NCBI RefSeq assembly: GCF_000242595.2
Contig: NC_017098.1
Coordinates: 186,001-250,000 of the forward strand
Direction: 5' to 3'
From: Spirochaeta africana DSM 8902
GTDB taxonomy: Bacteria > Spirochaetota > Spirochaetia > DSM-27196 > DSM-8902
DNA length: 64,000 bases
A model generated the notes under the pieces. The model was not told where the DNA came from. It saw only the letters and a list, made by a program, of their open reading frames with translations, and ran no database searches. This document shows positions 12,115 to 21,295 of the stretch, piece by piece. Position numbers and translations under genes: made by a program. Position 1 is the stretch's first letter. Each line of letters begins with the position of its first letter.

Positions 12115-13257
12115 TCAGAACCGCTGGCGAATAGAGAGCCTGCGTACCGTGTTCTGCAGATCGCGGATCTGCTTCTTCTGAGCCGTCAGGATCTCGATAA
12201 ACTCCTCGGCATTGGCCTGTGAGTTCTGACTGCCCTGACCTTGCTCCTGCTGCAGCTGGGCCAGATCGGTTGCCGACTCTATCTGCATCAGTTCGTAGGA
12301 GTCTTTGTACATATCCTTTTCCAGCGGCAAGGTCGGAAATTCCGGTGACTGGACGATCTTCTGGGCAATCCGGTCGACCTCGTAGGCCAGCAGACAGTCA
12401 GGGATAGCTGCGGTGATCGGGGCATGGGCGCGATGGGATCCTGCCAGGTGATCATCATGGATCATGAAGCCCAGGGCCGTCAGATCCACGCTGAGGTTTT
12501 TGTCGACAAGATCCCGCAGGCTTTCGGCGATATTCAGGTCGTCGCCGCTGCGCACCAGGTTGAGTACCAGCGATGGCTGCATCAGGCGGACATAGCGACC
12601 GGCTTTCTGGGCCTGTTTGAGGTCAAGCTGCTCCATGCCCTCGATTACCGAGGCAATAGTAACCGGATTTCCAGGGCGCCGCTCCTTGATGGATTTTCGC
12701 AGAAAACGCTCTACCTCGGATTCCCCGGAGAATGCACGCATCAGGAAACGGAACACCGTGTTCTTCATGAAGCTGTAAGCGTTCAGTACCGCCCCGACAT
12801 GGGGTGAGGTTACGATAATTCCGGAGTTAGAGATCAGGAAGAAGTCGACCACATTATTGTTGGCACCAGAGCCAAGGTCGAGCAGGATGTAGTCGGCATC
12901 CAGTTTCTCGATGTTGGCTATCAGGCTCTTTTTCTGGGCAAATCCGATGTTCGGGGTATTGGCGACCAGGACATCCCCGGGAATAAACCGCAGGTTGGCA
13001 TACGGAGTAGGGCTGACCAGATCCTCGAAATTCAGACGCCGGTCTGACAGGAAGTTACCGACTCCTGAGTGCCGGTTCTTGATCCCCAGTGCGGAATGCA
13101 GATTGGAGCCGCCAAGGTCCAGGTCGATAATAATGGTGTCATGACCCAGCTGTCCCAGGCGTACCCCGAGGTTGGCACAGAGCTCGGTCTTCCCGACACC
13201 GCCTTTGCCGCCTGCAATCGGAATTATCTTGTTTCTTCGCCGTTGTGTTATAACCAT
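12115..13257 (-). CDS. ParA/MinD-like ATPase
   Basis: 380 residues. Start ATG at 13257 has GGTGGAG upstream; the open frame extends far upstream but that part is antisense to the neighbour. The deviant Walker A GGKGGVGKT is at 16-24, followed by the switch IIDLDLGGSN and Walker B LLDLGSG. The size and the long C-terminal part ending in a likely coiled coil (ILTAQKKQIRDLQNTVRRL) set it apart from short plasmid ParA proteins and recall FlhG/MinD proteins, but the gene is not beside flagellar or min genes. It probably positions a cell structure by ATP-dependent dimerisation on membrane or DNA. Divergent from a LysM-like membrane protein and close to the cytoskeletal gene cfpA. Confidence 0.85.
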   Translation of the reverse strand: MVITQRRRNKIIPIAGGKGGVGKTELCANLGVRLGQLGHDTIIIDLDLGGSNLHSALGIKNRHSGVGNFLSDRRLNFEDLVSPTPYANLRFIPGDVLVANTPNIGFAQKKSLIANIEKLDADYILLDLGSGANNNVVDFFLISNSGIIVTSPHVGAVLNAYSFMKNTVFRFLMRAFSGESEVERFLRKSIKERRPGNPVTIASVIEGMEQLDLKQAQKAGRYVRLMQPSLVLNLVRSGDDLNIAESLRDLVDKNLSVDLTALGFMIHDDHLAGSHRAHAPITAAIPDCLLAYEVDRIAQKIVQSPEFPTLPLEKDMYKDSYELMQIESATDLAQLQQEQGQGSQNSQANAEEFIEILTAQKKQIRDLQNTVRRLSIRQRF

Positions 13258-13324
13258 TTCTCCACCTGTACGCACTATACTACCCGAATTTTGGGGAAAA
13301 CACCAGCATTCGTCAATATTGTTG

Positions 13325-13353
13325 CTGACAGTGGATATTTGTTGAACTATAGT
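13325..13353 (+). promoter_or_regulatory. Promoter of LysM-like membrane protein gene
   Basis: CTGACA (13325-13330), 17-base spacer, TATAGT (13348-13353), then 6 bases to the GTG at 13360. This is a good sigma-70-type pair, and it puts the transcript start at or beside the start codon. Confidence 0.5.
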
Positions 13354-13359
13354 AGAGGG

Positions 13360-15666
13360 GTGGATGAGGAGAAAAACGAGCGTGCCAGGAACAAAAACCG
13401 CGTATATGTGATTGATCGCGAGTGCTATGTCATTTATATGGGCAAGGCTGATCGCAAGTACCGGCCGTTTCTGCGCATCGGAACCAGTGCATTTATCCCT
13501 CGCGATATCCGGCGGCACATCGGTTCGGTTGTACTGACCGACCGTATGACCGGGAATTATTTTCTCGAGGCCGACTGTCTGGAAAAACCGGTGTCTCATC
13601 ACATGCACTATGTCGGTTCTCCGGATCTGGTGGATGCTGTACGTCACTTTATCCGGAACGAACAGATCGCCGACCAGCCGCTGGGGCCCCCGACCGATGT
13701 GGAAAAGGAAGAGGGTGGTCGGGTGGTGTTTTATGGTGACGGCAATCTGCGGGCCTTCCTGGACGGTCACCGTCTGTTTGATCTGTTTGAAAGTGAAAAA
13801 CGGGATCGACACTCGTTGTATCAGCTGCAGCGGGTGCACGACATTGTGAACGGGCTTCGCGGTGCCTATCGAGCCCAGGACCTGGCCGGCACCGGTTTTG
13901 TGCTGCTCCCAAACGGAGCACCGCTGTTGTTCGATAACGGTGTGCTGCAGAGTGTATATCTTGATGAGGCAACCGTAGAGCACACCGCCTACGCCATGCT
14001 GCCCCTGGGGCTGCTGCAGCGCTTTAGCGGCAGCGGCCGGCGCGATGCCGTGCTCAATGTCTGCAAGTGGCACAAGACCCGCACCGAGGCGCTTGAGTTC
14101 GTGCTGGCTGATAATGCCGGGAGTGCCGATCCGGACAGTCCGGTCGGCCAGGCCGACGCCTTGCTGCATCTGATGGAGCAGGCCGGTGTCGCCTGTCGCA
14201 ATGTTGCCGGGGTAGTGCTGCGGCCGGATATACCGGGTCTGTCCTGTATACCGCAGGAGCTCGGGTTGCAGATGCACGACCGGCTGGCGCCGCCGGCGGA
14301 ATGTGTACTGCAGCCGCCTGAGGGGTGCGACTGGCGCGGAGCGGTTCATCCGCCCCTGCTGCAGGAGGTTCTGTATCGCCTGGGCACCACCGCAACCGCC
14401 AAGTCGCTTCAGACCGCGCAAACCGCGCTGCAGCGGATCATGGGCAAAGAGGCCCGGGATCAGCTCAAAAACTATGCAGAGCTTTCCGAAGAGGAGCGAC
14501 GCCAGCAGATACGAAAGATCAGCGAGGATGCTGATCACATCGTTCAGCTCACCGTTCGCTTGTGGGCCTGGAATCAGCGTGAACTCGGGCAAGAGGTCGC
14601 TGATGCCGCCATGCTGGCCGGTGAGATCGAGACTGCTCACCGTCTGGTAAGGATGCCGCTCAAGGCAGCGGCGCGGCGGCAGGGGCAGGGCATCGGGATT
14701 GTATTCATGCCGCCGGACGGGATGTCCCGCGGGGTTATCGATGCCTGTGCCAAAGGGCGCGAAAAAATTGCTGCTGCCCTGGAAATTCCGGATAGACAGA
14801 GTTACTTTGAGTCAGAGAGGGCGCGGCTGAGTGCCACCCTGCAGGATCTGCTGGCATCCCGTCATGTTGCCCCGGTTGCGGCTCCGGTCGCGCCGGAGGG
14901 CGCCGCTGGCCGGGCGGCCGGGAGTGAAGCCTCAGGCGATCAGCGGGCTGCCGGGGAAGGCCGATCGGGGGACTCCCGTCCGGAAGGTGCCCGACCGGTA
15001 GCCGGTAGTGTGTGGGATGCGCCCTCGACGGGTCCGGTGCGCCGGAAGCGTGAGCGGAAAAGCCGCAGATTCCTGCTGGTTGCCGTGCTGCTGGCGCTGC
15101 TGGGGGCAGTACTGCTGGCTGGTATTCGTCTGGGCTGGCTGGACAGCATCGCTCAGCGTGGCGTCGCTATTCTTGCCCCGGCCGACCCGGCCGAGCAGCC
15201 TGCAGCAGCTTCCAGACACCCGGTCGAGGATGCCGACCTTCCGGACACAGTCGCGGATACGGCCGCTGACCGGGAGGCCGATGCTGACCGGGATGCCATA
15301 GTTGACCGGGAGGCCGAAACTGCCGATGAAACCGGTTTGCCCGGCGACGCGGAAGCAGCCGGGCCGCGGTGGACAATCCAGGAGGTCCTCAGGGTTACCA
15401 ACTGGATTGCGTATAATAACGGGTACGCCCTGATAGGACAGGACGCACTGCAGAGTCGGGATCCGGACTGGATTTACCCCGACAACGAGTTCACGCTGCC
15501 GGACGGCAGCAGGCATCGGGTGCGTCAGGGCGAGAGTATGTGGCGCATTGCCACCGGTTTTTTGGCTGATATGTATGCCTCTTCCCGTATGGAACGGGAA
15601 GAATTCCGTGCATTTATAAAAAACCTGGACTATACTCAAACTGTCCGGCAATGGAACGAGCAATAA
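13360..15666 (+). CDS. Single-pass membrane protein with C-terminal LysM-like motif
   Basis: 768 residues if the GTG at 13360 is used; no in-frame start with a spaced ribosome binding site exists, and the -10 hexamer 6 bases upstream supports this codon. Residues 1 to about 500 form a large soluble region of unknown family. A Pro/Ala/Gly linker follows, then a basic stretch (RRKRERKSRR) and one membrane helix (about 568-592). After it comes an acidic DREADADRDAIVDREAE-type segment and a LysM-like end (WIYPDNEFTLPDGSRHRVRQ, then GESMWRIA). By the positive-inside rule the N-terminal bulk is cytoplasmic and the LysM-like part faces peptidoglycan. It may link wall to cytoplasmic structures; cfpA follows after 108 bases. 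Confidence 0.75.
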   Translation: MDEEKNERARNKNRVYVIDRECYVIYMGKADRKYRPFLRIGTSAFIPRDIRRHIGSVVLTDRMTGNYFLEADCLEKPVSHHMHYVGSPDLVDAVRHFIRNEQIADQPLGPPTDVEKEEGGRVVFYGDGNLRAFLDGHRLFDLFESEKRDRHSLYQLQRVHDIVNGLRGAYRAQDLAGTGFVLLPNGAPLLFDNGVLQSVYLDEATVEHTAYAMLPLGLLQRFSGSGRRDAVLNVCKWHKTRTEALEFVLADNAGSADPDSPVGQADALLHLMEQAGVACRNVAGVVLRPDIPGLSCIPQELGLQMHDRLAPPAECVLQPPEGCDWRGAVHPPLLQEVLYRLGTTATAKSLQTAQTALQRIMGKEARDQLKNYAELSEEERRQQIRKISEDADHIVQLTVRLWAWNQRELGQEVADAAMLAGEIETAHRLVRMPLKAAARRQGQGIGIVFMPPDGMSRGVIDACAKGREKIAAALEIPDRQSYFESERARLSATLQDLLASRHVAPVAAPVAPEGAAGRAAGSEASGDQRAAGEGRSGDSRPEGARPVAGSVWDAPSTGPVRRKRERKSRRFLLVAVLLALLGAVLLAGIRLGWLDSIAQRGVAILAPADPAEQPAAASRHPVEDADLPDTVADTAADREADADRDAIVDREAETADETGLPGDAEAAGPRWTIQEVLRVTNWIAYNNGYALIGQDALQSRDPDWIYPDNEFTLPDGSRHRVRQGESMWRIATGFLADMYASSRMEREEFRAFIKNLDYTQTVRQWNEQ

Positions 15667-15774: not shown

Positions 15775-17751
15775 ATGTCCGATCTTACCCACAGTCCAAA
15801 TATTTTCCATCCGACCAAACCGTCTGCCGTTGGTTCACGAAACAGTTTGGCCCAGGAGGGGCGTGACCAGAAGCGGGAGTATGACAATCTGGTACAGGAA
15901 GAAACCGACCGGATTATGGAGACAATCCACTCCAAGCTGCCCCCGGAGGTGCTGGAGAAGCTGGATGTCACCGGCGGTCTGAAGGAAAAGCTGTACAACT
16001 ACTTCAACCAGAACTATCAGAACATGTTCAACCGGTACATCACCACTACCGAAGACGAGATGGTGAAAAAGATCCGGAACTTTATCGACAAGGAAGAGAA
16101 CAAGTCCCTTGCCCGATATACCCCGAAAGAGATCGCGTCGATGCTTGACGAGATCGCCGGATCTGACAAGTTCAATACCGGTGAGATCGAGAAGTCGATC
16201 GTGAACATGTACGGTCACCTGCAGGGTCATATCCAGCGGGGTATGAACGACCTGGAGAATGAGACCAACTCGCTGCTGCGACAGAAGACCGATGTTGGCG
16301 CCTTTATCCGTGGTGAGAATGCCTACTCGGTAGTCAAGTGTGCCTTCAAGGACAGCTCGCACAAGCCCAAGACTGTTTCCGACGTCAAACTGTCGGTGAA
16401 TATCCTGGACTCCGAACTCATCAGTCCGATCTTCCAGTATCAGGCCACGGTTGAATTCCTGATCAAGGATCAGATCAGCCGCACCATTACCAACCTGATC
16501 GATCAGGAGATCGAGCGGTATCAGGACCAGCTGATTGACGAGGGACGTGAGGAGCTGACCGACTCGGAGATCATCTTCGAAAAGATGAAGCGTGTACCTG
16601 AGTTCACCGATGACGATGCTGACGATGAAACCTCCAAGCGCTACACCTTCCTGGCCAAGGACTTGATGGACAAGATCGAGGGGCTGCGCGCCGAAATAGA
16701 CCCCAACCAGTTCGACCCGATCAACATCCGTGAAAACCTGAAAAAGATCATCGACATGGAGAATATCCGGAACCGCGGTTTTAACACCGTAATCAACTCT
16801 ATCACCTCGATCCTGGATACCAGTAAAATGGGCTATCAGTACGTAGAGAACCTCAAGAATGCCCGCGAACTGATTATCCGCGAGTATGAGGATACCGATG
16901 CCTATCAGCTGCCGGACGAGCGCTATCAGATCCGTCTGAAGTACTACGATTCCGAGCAGCTGTTGAAGGAGCGGGATGCCTACGATCAGCAGCTTGAGTC
17001 CTTCCGCCGTGAGATTCAGCGCCTGTATGATGTTGTTGAGCAGACCTATCTGGATAGCCGATCCCGATTCAGCGTAACCGATTACGAGGATCTCTCTCGC
17101 CGACTCTCCAAGAAGATCAGGAAGCGACGGGAAGGGGTTTCCTTCGAGGAATCCGGGGATCCCCTGGTGCAGGAGATGCGCAAGGTCTGGAACGAGATTG
17201 CCCGCATGAAGGTCGATGAGACCGATACCGAACGCCTGAATCGCACCTACCTGTACGAAAAGGATCTGTTCAAGAAGATGCTGGGGCATCTCTCCAAGCG
17301 GATCGAGGTTCTGTACGGCTATCGCAACCCGAAAGAGCGGGTTATCCTGGATCAGCGGGTGGAGTTCCTGCGCAAGCAGTTCGACGATTTTGATTACCTG
17401 ATCAACCCGTACCACATCCAGTCGGGCCTGGTGCTGGATGTAGATATCACCAGCATCAAACGCAAGAAGTATACCCTGAACAGCATGGCCAACGTGCTGA
17501 ACGAGTTCCTGCATGGCATCTCGAAGGGGTTCCAGGATGCTGCCTTCGCGGCATTCAAGCGACGCCGCTCTACCGTGCGCGATGACATCACCATGAGCTT
17601 CGGTGCTGACTACGAGGACGTCGGCGAGGATTCGGTTCCGACCGTTTCGGCCGAGCCCCAGAAGGGTGGTTCAGGCTCGTCAGTAAAAGGACAGGCAGAC
17701 GTATCCCCTGGCAAGGGTGATATCTCGGGCGACGACCTTCAGGAACTCTGA
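15775..17751 (+). CDS. cfpA: Cytoplasmic filament protein A
   Basis: 658 residues, close to the length I recall for Treponema CfpA. The N-terminus ([47 protein letters not shown]) and later blocks ([40 protein letters not shown]) match what I remember of that protein closely. CfpA forms the ribbon of filaments beneath the inner membrane along the cell, and loss affects division and cell shape in Treponema. The sequence is nearly all helical with many charged heptad-like stretches. The start ATG has GAGGAGGAAC upstream, a strong ribosome binding site suited to an abundant structural protein. The following gene begins 3 bases after the stop. Confidence 0.96.
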
Positions 17752-17754
17752 TCT

Positions 17755-18675
17755 ATGATTGGAAATCTGGATATTCTATCCCGCAGGGCCGGTTTTAACA
17801 CCGCCCTGCGTCATTTCAAGGCAGTATCCGGTTTTCTGAAGCCGGTCAGCAGTGGCGCCAATCTGGCTGATCTGCTGGCCGATGCTTTGGAGAATGGGGT
17901 TCTTTCCGAAGAACAGGTTCCGCTGGTGGTGAGTGCACTGCTGGCGGACAAGTTTTCCTATGCGGCCGTCTCGCGCAATGCAGAGGTCATCATTGAGGAT
18001 GTTGATGCGGTAATCGAGAAGCTGTGCGGCTGGTCGGCCCTGCAGATAGTGGTTGTGTATGAACACCCCGAGGCGGGATCGTTCGCTATTAATCCCTGTC
18101 GCAAGGAGTCCTGGAAACAGGCCCTCCCGATACTTCGTGATGAGCTGGTGGTGGTGTATGTCGGCCCTGCGTCTGGCGAACTTCCAGCGGAGGTGCTGCA
18201 GGCAGCCGCCTACGATGTACACGAAATACTGGCCGGGCGAGAACCTGCCGGGCGACCTGAGTACACTGCTACAACCGCGCGACGACCAGCACCACCTCCC
18301 AAACCCAAGGTAGCCAAGCAGCCGGCAGCGGCGAGAAAGGGTGACTACCGGATAACGCCGCGCTACTCGGTGGTAGTGACCAACGAGCTGTTCCACAACG
18401 GGAATGTTGAGGCCTGGAAGCGTATCGTGGGCAGCTATCGCGCTACCTATCCTGAGCTTGATGTGCTGATCTATTACGATAACGAGCGCATCAAGGACAT
18501 CAACTCGCTGTTCAAGTGGGGCAAGGTTAAACATGGCACCCCGATCCTTATCAGCGTTGCTGGAGATCAGATTCGTGATGTCTCCAAGCTGCAGCGATAT
18601 CTGTTTGAGGGAGCGAGTCCGCGGTTCGAGATGTTCCTGAAGGGCAGTATCGATCAGCCGCTGGAACTCTTCTAA
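17755..18675 (+). CDS. Hypothetical protein encoded directly after cfpA
   Basis: 306 residues. ATG lies 3 bases after the cfpA stop, so the two are translationally linked. Two globular parts (about 1-160 and 195-306) are joined by a Pro/Lys/Ala linker (RRPAPPPKPKVAKQ). No signal peptide, membrane segment or known motif. The second part has an alternating alpha/beta pattern (YSVVVTNELFHNGNVEAWKR, LDVLIYYDNERI). In T. pallidum a hypothetical gene occupies the same place between cfpA and the PPDK gene, as far as I recall, so a filament-linked role is a reasonable but untested idea. Confidence 0.8.
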   Translation: MIGNLDILSRRAGFNTALRHFKAVSGFLKPVSSGANLADLLADALENGVLSEEQVPLVVSALLADKFSYAAVSRNAEVIIEDVDAVIEKLCGWSALQIVVVYEHPEAGSFAINPCRKESWKQALPILRDELVVVYVGPASGELPAEVLQAAAYDVHEILAGREPAGRPEYTATTARRPAPPPKPKVAKQPAAARKGDYRITPRYSVVVTNELFHNGNVEAWKRIVGSYRATYPELDVLIYYDNERIKDINSLFKWGKVKHGTPILISVAGDQIRDVSKLQRYLFEGASPRFEMFLKGSIDQPLELF

Positions 18676-18691
18676 CTGACAGGAGCTATAC

Positions 18692-21295
18692 ATGAGTATG
18701 TTTATTTCATTCGGGACCGGCCGGTCCACCGTAAAGGGGGATCAGGCGATTGGCAGTCGGGGTGAGCGGGCAGTATCGCTTGCCGAGCTGGACATGCCGA
18801 TCTGTCCCGGGTTTGTGATACCGAACGAGGGGGTCAAGCTGTGTGCCGCTGATCCCCGCAAGGCTGCCCAGCAACTTCGTCATTCTGTGGGCGAGGTTGA
18901 GCAGGTTATGCGCAAAGACTTTGGCGGCGAGGCCCCGCTGCTGCTCAAGGTAGTCGAAAGCCCGATGCTGAATGTCCAGAGTTCGCTGCCGTCGGTACAT
19001 CATATCGGGCTCACCGAAACAACGGTTGCGGCAGTTGCCGAGATGACCGGGGAAAAATTCGCCTACGGTGAGTATGCATTCCTGTTGCGCAGTATTCTGC
19101 AAGCAGCCCTGGTGGGTGGTACAGATGGCGAACGCGCCAGGGAGCTGCACGCCTACCTGGAGGCTCTGAAAAAGGCGAAAACCAAGAACACAATACTCAA
19201 GGCTATCGAGGGGCATCGCGATGTGCTGCCGGTCGAGCTGTACACCGATCCCTATTTCCAGCTGCTGTATGTGGTGCAGTTGTTTAATGCTGCCTTCACC
19301 CAAAGCCCAACCACCGAGGATTCGGCGGTGCAGGTGCAGGCGATGGTATACGGAAACCTCGACAAGCGCAGCAGTGCCGGGTATCTGTACACGCATCATA
19401 TCGTTACCGGCGCCGACGAGCTGCAGGGGGAGTTTTTTCCCATCTCGTTCGACGAAACGGCGAGTAACGGCAAACCGATCAATCAGATTGAGCCCAATCA
19501 TCGCAAGGCGCTGGGGGCTATGGCCCGCAAGCTGGAGGATCACTTCCGGGAGATCCGGTGGATACGCTTTGTAATCGAGGCGGACACTCTCTGGCTGGTT
19601 GATCAGGCATCGGTGCCCAACAAGTCGGCCCAGGCCGAGATTCGCACCCTGCTGGATCTGCAGAAGCGTGATGTGGTTACCAAAGATTATCTTATCGAGA
19701 AGATCAAGCCGGGTCGGCTGTCCGAGATTCTGCATCCTACCCTGGATGCGACCTCGGTTAAAACCCTGCCAACCATCAGCGGCGGGATAGCCGGTGCTGT
19801 AGGTGCCGCAATCGGGCGAGTGTTTTTTACGGCAGAAAGCCTGATTACTGCGTACCGACAGGCCCAGCAGGCCGGCGAGGACACCAGTATGATACTGGCC
19901 ATGCCGTCTACATTTGCCGGTGATGTCAAGGCGATCGAGATTGCACAGGGTGTTCTTTCTTCCGAGGGCGGGTATGCATCGCATGCCCCGGTAGTGGCGC
20001 GCAGTCTTGGAAAGGTTGCGATGGTACGCCCCGATGCGGTGTTTCGCAAGAAAACCCTGGTGCTGGACGGCCATGAGGTGCAGGAAGGTGACTACATTAC
20101 CATGAATGTACCGTACTATGACGACCCGGTGATCTACATCGGGCAGGGCAGTCTTACCAAGCCCTCGCTGGAGGACAGTGGCCTGCTTGAATTTATGGAT
20201 ATAATCCAGGAGCGAATCGGCGACATCGATGTGCATGCCAACGCCGACCAGCCGCGAGATGCCAGTCTGGCGAGAAAGTTCAATGCCATGGGCATTGGCT
20301 TGTGCCGCACCGAGCACATGTTCTTTGCCGAGTCTCGTATAAACCGCTTTCGCTACATGATCCTGGCGGATGACACCGAGATGCGAACCCGCATCCTGGA
20401 TGATCTGCACAAGGATCAGACCGAGGATTTTTACGAGCTGCTCAAGATTATGGATGGCCTGCCGGTAACCATTCGACTGCTGGATGCACCCCTGCATGAG
20501 TTCCTGCCCCACGATGAGGATGGCATGAAGGACTTTATTGCGCAGGCAAAAAAGGATGGGGTCGGTCTTACCAGGGCCGCCATCCTGGAACGCAGCCAGC
20601 TGATGCGTGAGTTCAATCCCATGCTGGGGCATCGCGGTATCCGGGTAGCGATCTCGTATCCGGAGATCTATCGCATGCAGACCCGGGCCATTTTTGAGGC
20701 CGGATACAAACTCAAGCTTGAAGGCAAGGATCCCAAGCCCGAGATCATGATTCCCCTGGTGATGAACCCGAATGAGCTGAAGGTTGTGCGCAACGGCAAG
20801 AAGATCGAGGGGAAACATATACTGGGGATCCGGGATATCGAGGAGCAGGTCAGGGCCAAGTTTGCGTGTGATCCGATCAAATACTCGGTAGGTACCATGA
20901 TCGAGCTCCCGGCTGCAGCGCTTAATTCTTCATCGATTGCCCGGTATGCGGATTTCTTTTCTTTCGGGACCAACGACCTGACCCAGACGACCTATGGTAT
21001 ATCCCGGGATGACTTTAATACCTTCTTTTCGGACTATACCGAGCTCGACCTGCTGCCCAACAATCCGTTCAAGGTTCTGCAGCCGCAGGTCAAGGAGCTG
21101 GTGAAAACTGCAGCCCTGCGGGGGCGGATGGTGCGGCCTGATCTTACCCTGGGGCTGTGCGGCGAACACGGTGCCGAACCCCAGAATATCGACTTTATCC
21201 GGGAGGCCGGGCTGAACTATGTATCGGTGTCTCCGTACGGGATACCGATTGCCAAACTGGCAATCGCGCAGATGAATCTGAAGAGCGGCGAGTAG
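18692..21295 (+). CDS. Pyruvate phosphate dikinase homologue with altered ATP-binding half
   Basis: 867 residues, near the usual 870-880. The central phospho-carrier domain keeps the catalytic histidine (His431 in GGYASHAPVVAR). The C-terminal PEP/pyruvate barrel keeps IRLLDAPLHEFLP, GLCRTEHMFF, SFGTNDLTQTTYGISRDD and the proton donor Cys in LCGEHGAEP (about 823). The N-terminal ATP-grasp half is aberrant: the GGKG loop reads GSRGER, the expected VRSGAR motif reads LKVVESPML, and the QGEDV motif after GEF is absent. ATP/phosphate use is therefore doubtful, while PEP chemistry looks possible. It is co-directional with cfpA and starts 16 bases after the hypothetical gene, with AGGAG upstream. 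Confidence 0.85.
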   Translation: MSMFISFGTGRSTVKGDQAIGSRGERAVSLAELDMPICPGFVIPNEGVKLCAADPRKAAQQLRHSVGEVEQVMRKDFGGEAPLLLKVVESPMLNVQSSLPSVHHIGLTETTVAAVAEMTGEKFAYGEYAFLLRSILQAALVGGTDGERARELHAYLEALKKAKTKNTILKAIEGHRDVLPVELYTDPYFQLLYVVQLFNAAFTQSPTTEDSAVQVQAMVYGNLDKRSSAGYLYTHHIVTGADELQGEFFPISFDETASNGKPINQIEPNHRKALGAMARKLEDHFREIRWIRFVIEADTLWLVDQASVPNKSAQAEIRTLLDLQKRDVVTKDYLIEKIKPGRLSEILHPTLDATSVKTLPTISGGIAGAVGAAIGRVFFTAESLITAYRQAQQAGEDTSMILAMPSTFAGDVKAIEIAQGVLSSEGGYASHAPVVARSLGKVAMVRPDAVFRKKTLVLDGHEVQEGDYITMNVPYYDDPVIYIGQGSLTKPSLEDSGLLEFMDIIQERIGDIDVHANADQPRDASLARKFNAMGIGLCRTEHMFFAESRINRFRYMILADDTEMRTRILDDLHKDQTEDFYELLKIMDGLPVTIRLLDAPLHEFLPHDEDGMKDFIAQAKKDGVGLTRAAILERSQLMREFNPMLGHRGIRVAISYPEIYRMQTRAIFEAGYKLKLEGKDPKPEIMIPLVMNPNELKVVRNGKKIEGKHILGIRDIEEQVRAKFACDPIKYSVGTMIELPAAALNSSSIARYADFFSFGTNDLTQTTYGISRDDFNTFFSDYTELDLLPNNPFKVLQPQVKELVKTAALRGRMVRPDLTLGLCGEHGAEPQNIDFIREAGLNYVSVSPYGIPIAKLAIAQMNLKSGE

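Follow-up and report, generated by a model that had tools for sequence, protein, structure and literature searches.

A PPDK-like protein with a degenerate ATP-grasp half, encoded beside the cytoplasmic filament gene of Spirochaeta africana, may feed a PEP-dependent phosphate relay

The window (the whole stretch of 64,000 nucleotides of Spirochaeta africana DNA analysed here) contains an 867-aa open reading frame that, judged by its residues, is confirmed as a paralogue of pyruvate phosphate dikinase (PPDK) whose ATP-grasp half is dead and whose phosphohistidine/PEP half is intact. Because the ATP site appears dead, the phosphate-handling half is kept, and the gene travels with cfpA and with a gene that we call MID, the trio probably passes phosphate from PEP, a product of sugar breakdown, to the filament system. 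Our preference, which is a slight one, is for a PTS-like relay from PEP to the His of the PPDK-like protein and on to the HPr-like His of MID, tied to the cytoplasmic filament. MID, which lies between cfpA and the PPDK-like gene and was overlooked in the preliminary description of this locus, is on the strength of its predicted fold the likely acceptor. The features concerned, all on the forward strand, are as follows.

13069..15666, +, 865-aa protein, probably with a single membrane segment; LysM-like C-terminus (recognised by eye)
15775..17751, +, CfpA, cytoplasmic filament protein (NF040882, 1127 bits against a cut-off of 500)
17755..18675, +, MID, 306 aa, predicted tandem HPr-like fold protein (predicted structure)
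17959..18240, +, first predicted HPr-like domain of MID (residues 69-162), without a conserved active-site His
18355..18633, +, second predicted HPr-like domain of MID (residues 201-293); invariant His H214 (codon 18394-18396) stands where helix 1 begins
18692..21295, +, candidate PPDK-like PEP:protein phosphotransferase, 867 aa (open reading frame, profile matches, residue alignment, structure matches, tree)
18692..19711, +, degenerate ATP-grasp half (residues 1-340; residue alignment, sub-threshold PPDK_N, absence from one orthologue)
19769..20161, +, swivelling phosphohistidine domain (residues 360-490), catalytic His H431 at 19982-19984 (Pfam, residue alignment, structure match)
20162..21292, +, PEP/pyruvate barrel (residues 491-867), with R539, R595, E738, N761, D762 and C823 kept (Pfam, residue alignment, structure match)

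Results

The PPDK-like protein and its two halves

The reading frame begins with an ATG preceded by an AGGAG ribosome-binding-like site. In Pfam it matches PEP-utilizers_C (231 bits) and PEP-utilizers (37 bits) above their cut-offs, and PPDK_N below it (11.3 bits against 27); neither the PPDK equivalog TIGR01828 (622 bits against 843) nor the Enzyme I equivalog-domain TIGR01417 (114 bits against 342) is reached. Alignment with solved PPDKs is strong over the second half and weak over the first. The second, canonical PPDK for which a search had been proposed was not found in the S. africana genome, which has a pyruvate kinase instead. A PPDK_N match at locus L001 was considered as a canonical PPDK and rejected, as it belongs to an 891-aa protein of another kind; an Rfam search of the window gave no match.

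The preliminary description had held that the ATP-grasp part lacks its GGKG, VRSGAR and QGEDV motifs, and all three losses are borne out by a column check in which 57 orthologues were aligned with 19 canonical spirochaete PPDKs (Clostridium symbiosum numbering, carried over through alignment with 1dik/2dik). The Lys of G-x-K22-G is Arg in all 57 orthologues (R23 here, within GSRGER), VRSGAR has become V-V-x-S, with R92 lost (its position is V88 here), and GEDV is gone together with E279 and D280. R135 is lost in most of the 57, R337 is lost as well, and MQD-x-E has become I-R-x-x-[KR], where D321 is variable and E323 is Lys or Arg. Arg95 and Glu324 of plant PPDK have been named as ATP-binding residues (PMC5507339); assuming a shift in numbering, they probably correspond to R92 and E323. 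The alignment with known PPDKs thus shows a loss of the ATP-binding residues, and the idea that they persist at shifted positions was rejected: the single candidate is Q305, a Gln in 56/57 orthologues that may match Q335, and whose placements by MAFFT and HMMER differ by one residue. As this pattern of replacement is conserved across a phylum, with the reading frames intact, it reflects neither chance nor recent decay, and we also rejected a recent pseudogene. For the remaining ATP/Pi and PEP-site residues we take the functional roles to be those of the C. symbiosum enzyme. In some lineages (f17 and f30; L055:5102-7999 and L089:8083-10977) the degenerate half holds about 100 extra residues, for a total of 964-965 aa.

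The other two domains present the opposite picture. Their key motifs had been described as kept, and every residue that we checked (H455, R561, R617, E745, N768, D769 and C831 in C. symbiosum numbering) is invariant in the 57 orthologues. The His domain matches the PPDK phosphoryl-carrier domain 2fm4 (Z 17.0), and modelled residues 363-865 superpose on phosphorylated Enzyme I 2hwg (Z 27.9). At residues ~695-712 the PEP barrel carries a conserved insertion, E-x-K...GKKIEG...GI, which is absent from canonical PPDK and serves as a marker of the group. In one complete Treponema-group genome (G287, L038:5391-8068) a frameshift splits the gene.

In a tree built on the shared phosphohistidine and PEP columns the PPDK-like orthologues form a single clade separate from canonical PPDK (support 100). 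Their N half evolves fastest, with a mean identity of 42%, where the other two domains have 62-64%; in canonical PPDK the mean identity is ~60% in all domains. In one complete genome (G209) the 586-aa orthologue spans only residues ~309-861, lacks the ATP-grasp half and keeps all the catalytic motifs. The start of this gene (L076:7594-9354) overlaps the end of the MID gene, and a search of that genome for the lost half gave matches only within its canonical PPDK. In the same genome cfpA is located elsewhere.

Co-occurrence and gene order with cfpA

In the window cfpA is followed after 3 bases by MID, and MID after 16 bases by the PPDK-like gene. Among 296 Spirochaetota genomes CfpA is found in 109, MID in 105 and the PPDK-like protein in 105; 184 have none of the three, and 101 of the 112 that have any possess the full set (pairwise Fisher p ~1e-66 to 1e-72, uncorrected for phylogeny). 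Ten of the 11 genomes with a partial set are drafts less than 90% complete, and in the remaining one (G122, 93%) MID and the PPDK-like gene are both missing. Three families (f2, f5 and f9) each include genera with all three genes and genera with none. The order cfpA-MID-PPDK recurs, where the contig permits, in almost every one of 80 named loci; in f22 the MID-PPDK pair stays together apart from cfpA, and in f44 the cfpA-MID pair stays together with the PPDK-like gene ~6 kb off. In T. denticola the corresponding genes TDE0842-0844 (cfpA, hypothetical, PPDK) respond together (PMC3914990).

Orthologues of the 865-aa protein occur in 46 loci, usually just upstream of cfpA, and in some they separate MID from the PPDK-like gene; this protein is a possible membrane anchor for the filament.

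The predicted fold of MID

MID has no match in NCBIfam or in Pfam, including PF00381. Its AlphaFold2 model, built with 49 sequences (pLDDT 89), retrieves many HPr structures in Foldseek (best probability 0.99, E no better than 0.03), and HPr chains rank at or near the top for both predicted domains in Foldseek and VIA-align alike. With VIA-align, residues 69-162 superpose on E. coli HPr (1cm2) with Z 8.6 and 1.9 A over 80 residues, and residues 201-293 on T. tengcongensis HPr (3le1_A) with Z 7.7 and 2.7 A, the latter score being only modestly above those of unrelated folds (GlmM, 6.3). Residues 204-286 of the model follow the HPr order b-a-b-b-a-b-a, with H214 just ahead of helix 1; this residue, present in the second domain only, is placed as His15 of HPr and is invariant in 142/142 sequences. 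The regions of helix 1 and helix 2 in HPr form its Enzyme I-binding face, and the most conserved stretches of MID lie around these same helices.

Kinship with HPr is not supported at the level of sequence. Comparison by hhalign gave E 0.013 and a probability of 3%, with 1/200 column shuffles scoring equally high, and unrelated PPDK windows reached 17.2, nearly the 18.0 of the MID-HPr pair. A profile search of the PDB with MID returned weak NusA matches only, the two MID domains gave no profile alignment with each other, and the Arg that follows the His in the HPr signature is absent, the motif being HNGN. Since sequence profiles fail to prove the relationship, we limit our claim to a predicted HPr-like fold and do not claim membership of the HPr family. 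In one complete genome (G200, L051:6032-6960) a frameshift splits MID in the linker between its two predicted domains; it may be an assembly error, a case of frameshifting or a true split. We found no paper on TP0747, the T. pallidum gene in the MID position, among open-licence papers.

Discussion

These results can be read in terms of an Enzyme I-like PEP:protein phosphotransferase that would have evolved from PPDK. Given its intact chemistry and the precedent of PPDK and Enzyme I, PEP would phosphorylate H431 with release of pyruvate, and the His domain would then swivel. The ATP-grasp half would no longer handle ATP, AMP, PPi or Pi, and may serve as a docking or structural domain or be dispensable. 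The predicted fold, the invariant His, the linkage and the co-occurrence suggest that H431 would hand its phosphate to MID, at H214 of the second HPr-like domain. From linkage, the relay may report the PEP/pyruvate state to the CfpA filament, or act on the filament. The same genomes also encode ordinary PTS Enzyme I and HPr (HPr in 15/15 of those tested), so that the proposed relay would be an additional one. Against it count the sequence similarity of MID to HPr, which is not significant, the small margin by which the Z of the second predicted domain exceeds that of unrelated folds, the HNGN motif, and the distance of ~6 kb to the PPDK-like gene in f44.

Each component has a familiar counterpart. 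With PPDK (TIGR01828; 1dik, 1vbg) the protein shares the three-domain layout, the phosphohistidine and PEP domains and ~35% identity (Z 44); unlike PPDK it lacks the residues of the ATP/Pi site, falls below the equivalog cut-off and forms its own clade. The His and PEP domains also superpose on those of PTS Enzyme I (TIGR01417; 2hwg), and the reaction proposed here, from PEP to His to the His of a partner, is the same, but the PPDK-like protein descends from PPDK, as its bit scores to the two families indicate, and an EI-type helical HPr-binding subdomain was not recognised in it. MID resembles HPr/Crh (PF00381) in that both predicted domains superpose and the second has an invariant His before helix 1, and differs from it in being tandem, in the want of a His in its first domain, in having HNGN in place of H-x-R-P, and in sequence. 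The treponeme CfpA locus (TP0748-0746, TDE0842-0844) has the same three genes in the same order; its third gene, however, has been published as a PPDK and its second as hypothetical (PMC8525777, PMC10013896, PMC3914990), and we found no proposal of a relay for it in the open-licence literature.

Three functional options had been put forward for the protein, and the one that fits best is a PEP-only phosphotransferase, combined with a regulatory partnership with the filament. A different phosphate donor is a poor fit, given an intact PEP site and the loss of the ATP/Pi site, and the complete invariance of the catalytic residues argues against a purely structural role.

The principal alternative to MID as acceptor is that the PPDK-like protein takes the phosphate of PEP and hands it to CfpA, ordinary HPr, a small molecule or water, with MID as a structural adaptor. 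The intact PEP/His half and the general presence of ordinary HPr would suit this arrangement, as would T. pallidum, where a PEP-to-pyruvate outlet is wanted because neither a canonical PPDK nor a pyruvate kinase is matched. We nevertheless think it rather unlikely, as the gene that is linked and co-occurs is MID rather than ordinary HPr, and it is in MID that a predicted HPr fold and an invariant His come together. That the protein is an inert scaffold or a metabolite sensor of the filament, merely binding PEP or pyruvate, would agree with its conserved link to a structural protein and with one half being already dead; such a role is improbable, since a pure binder has no need of a swivelling His, the catalytic His and its partners in the PEP site are invariant, and the G209 orthologue dropped the dead half and retained every catalytic motif. 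Finally, a working PPDK (dependent on ATP/Pi or PPi) whose ATP site has been rearranged, the function published for TP0746, which is treated as glycolytic and ATP-forming in PMC10013896 and PMC8525777, would account for the overall fold (Z 44 is to maize PPDK) and the conserved Gln near Q335, but is very hard to reconcile with the phylum-wide loss of the Lys22, Arg92, Glu279/Asp280, Glu323 and Arg337 positions, with a separate canonical PPDK in most genomes, and with an orthologue entirely devoid of the ATP-grasp half.

The question bears directly on Treponema pallidum. A genome of 1,139,633 bp in our set (G056) has a PPDK-like orthologue at 810743-813307, and since the TP0746 variants at 810772 and 811414 (PMC10013896) fall inside it, this genome is very probably that of T. 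pallidum and the orthologue TP0746. According to PMC10013896, TP0746 most likely forms ATP from PEP, AMP and PPi; its residues argue against this. A search of the same genome gave no match to canonical PPDK or pyruvate kinase, so that, if the relay reading is true, the PEP-to-pyruvate step as drawn would be left without an ATP-forming enzyme, and TP0746 could no longer stand annotated as an ATP-forming PPDK.

Loss of the filament in T. denticola leads to chromosome condensation and cell filamentation (PMC3398590). The wider proposal, that a donor derived from PPDK and an acceptor with tandem HPr-like domains form a relay coupling glycolytic state to the filament in much of the Spirochaetota, T. 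pallidum included, seems to us evenly poised. If it is true, the spirochaete cytoplasmic filament would gain a metabolic input of its own, along with two candidate accessory proteins.
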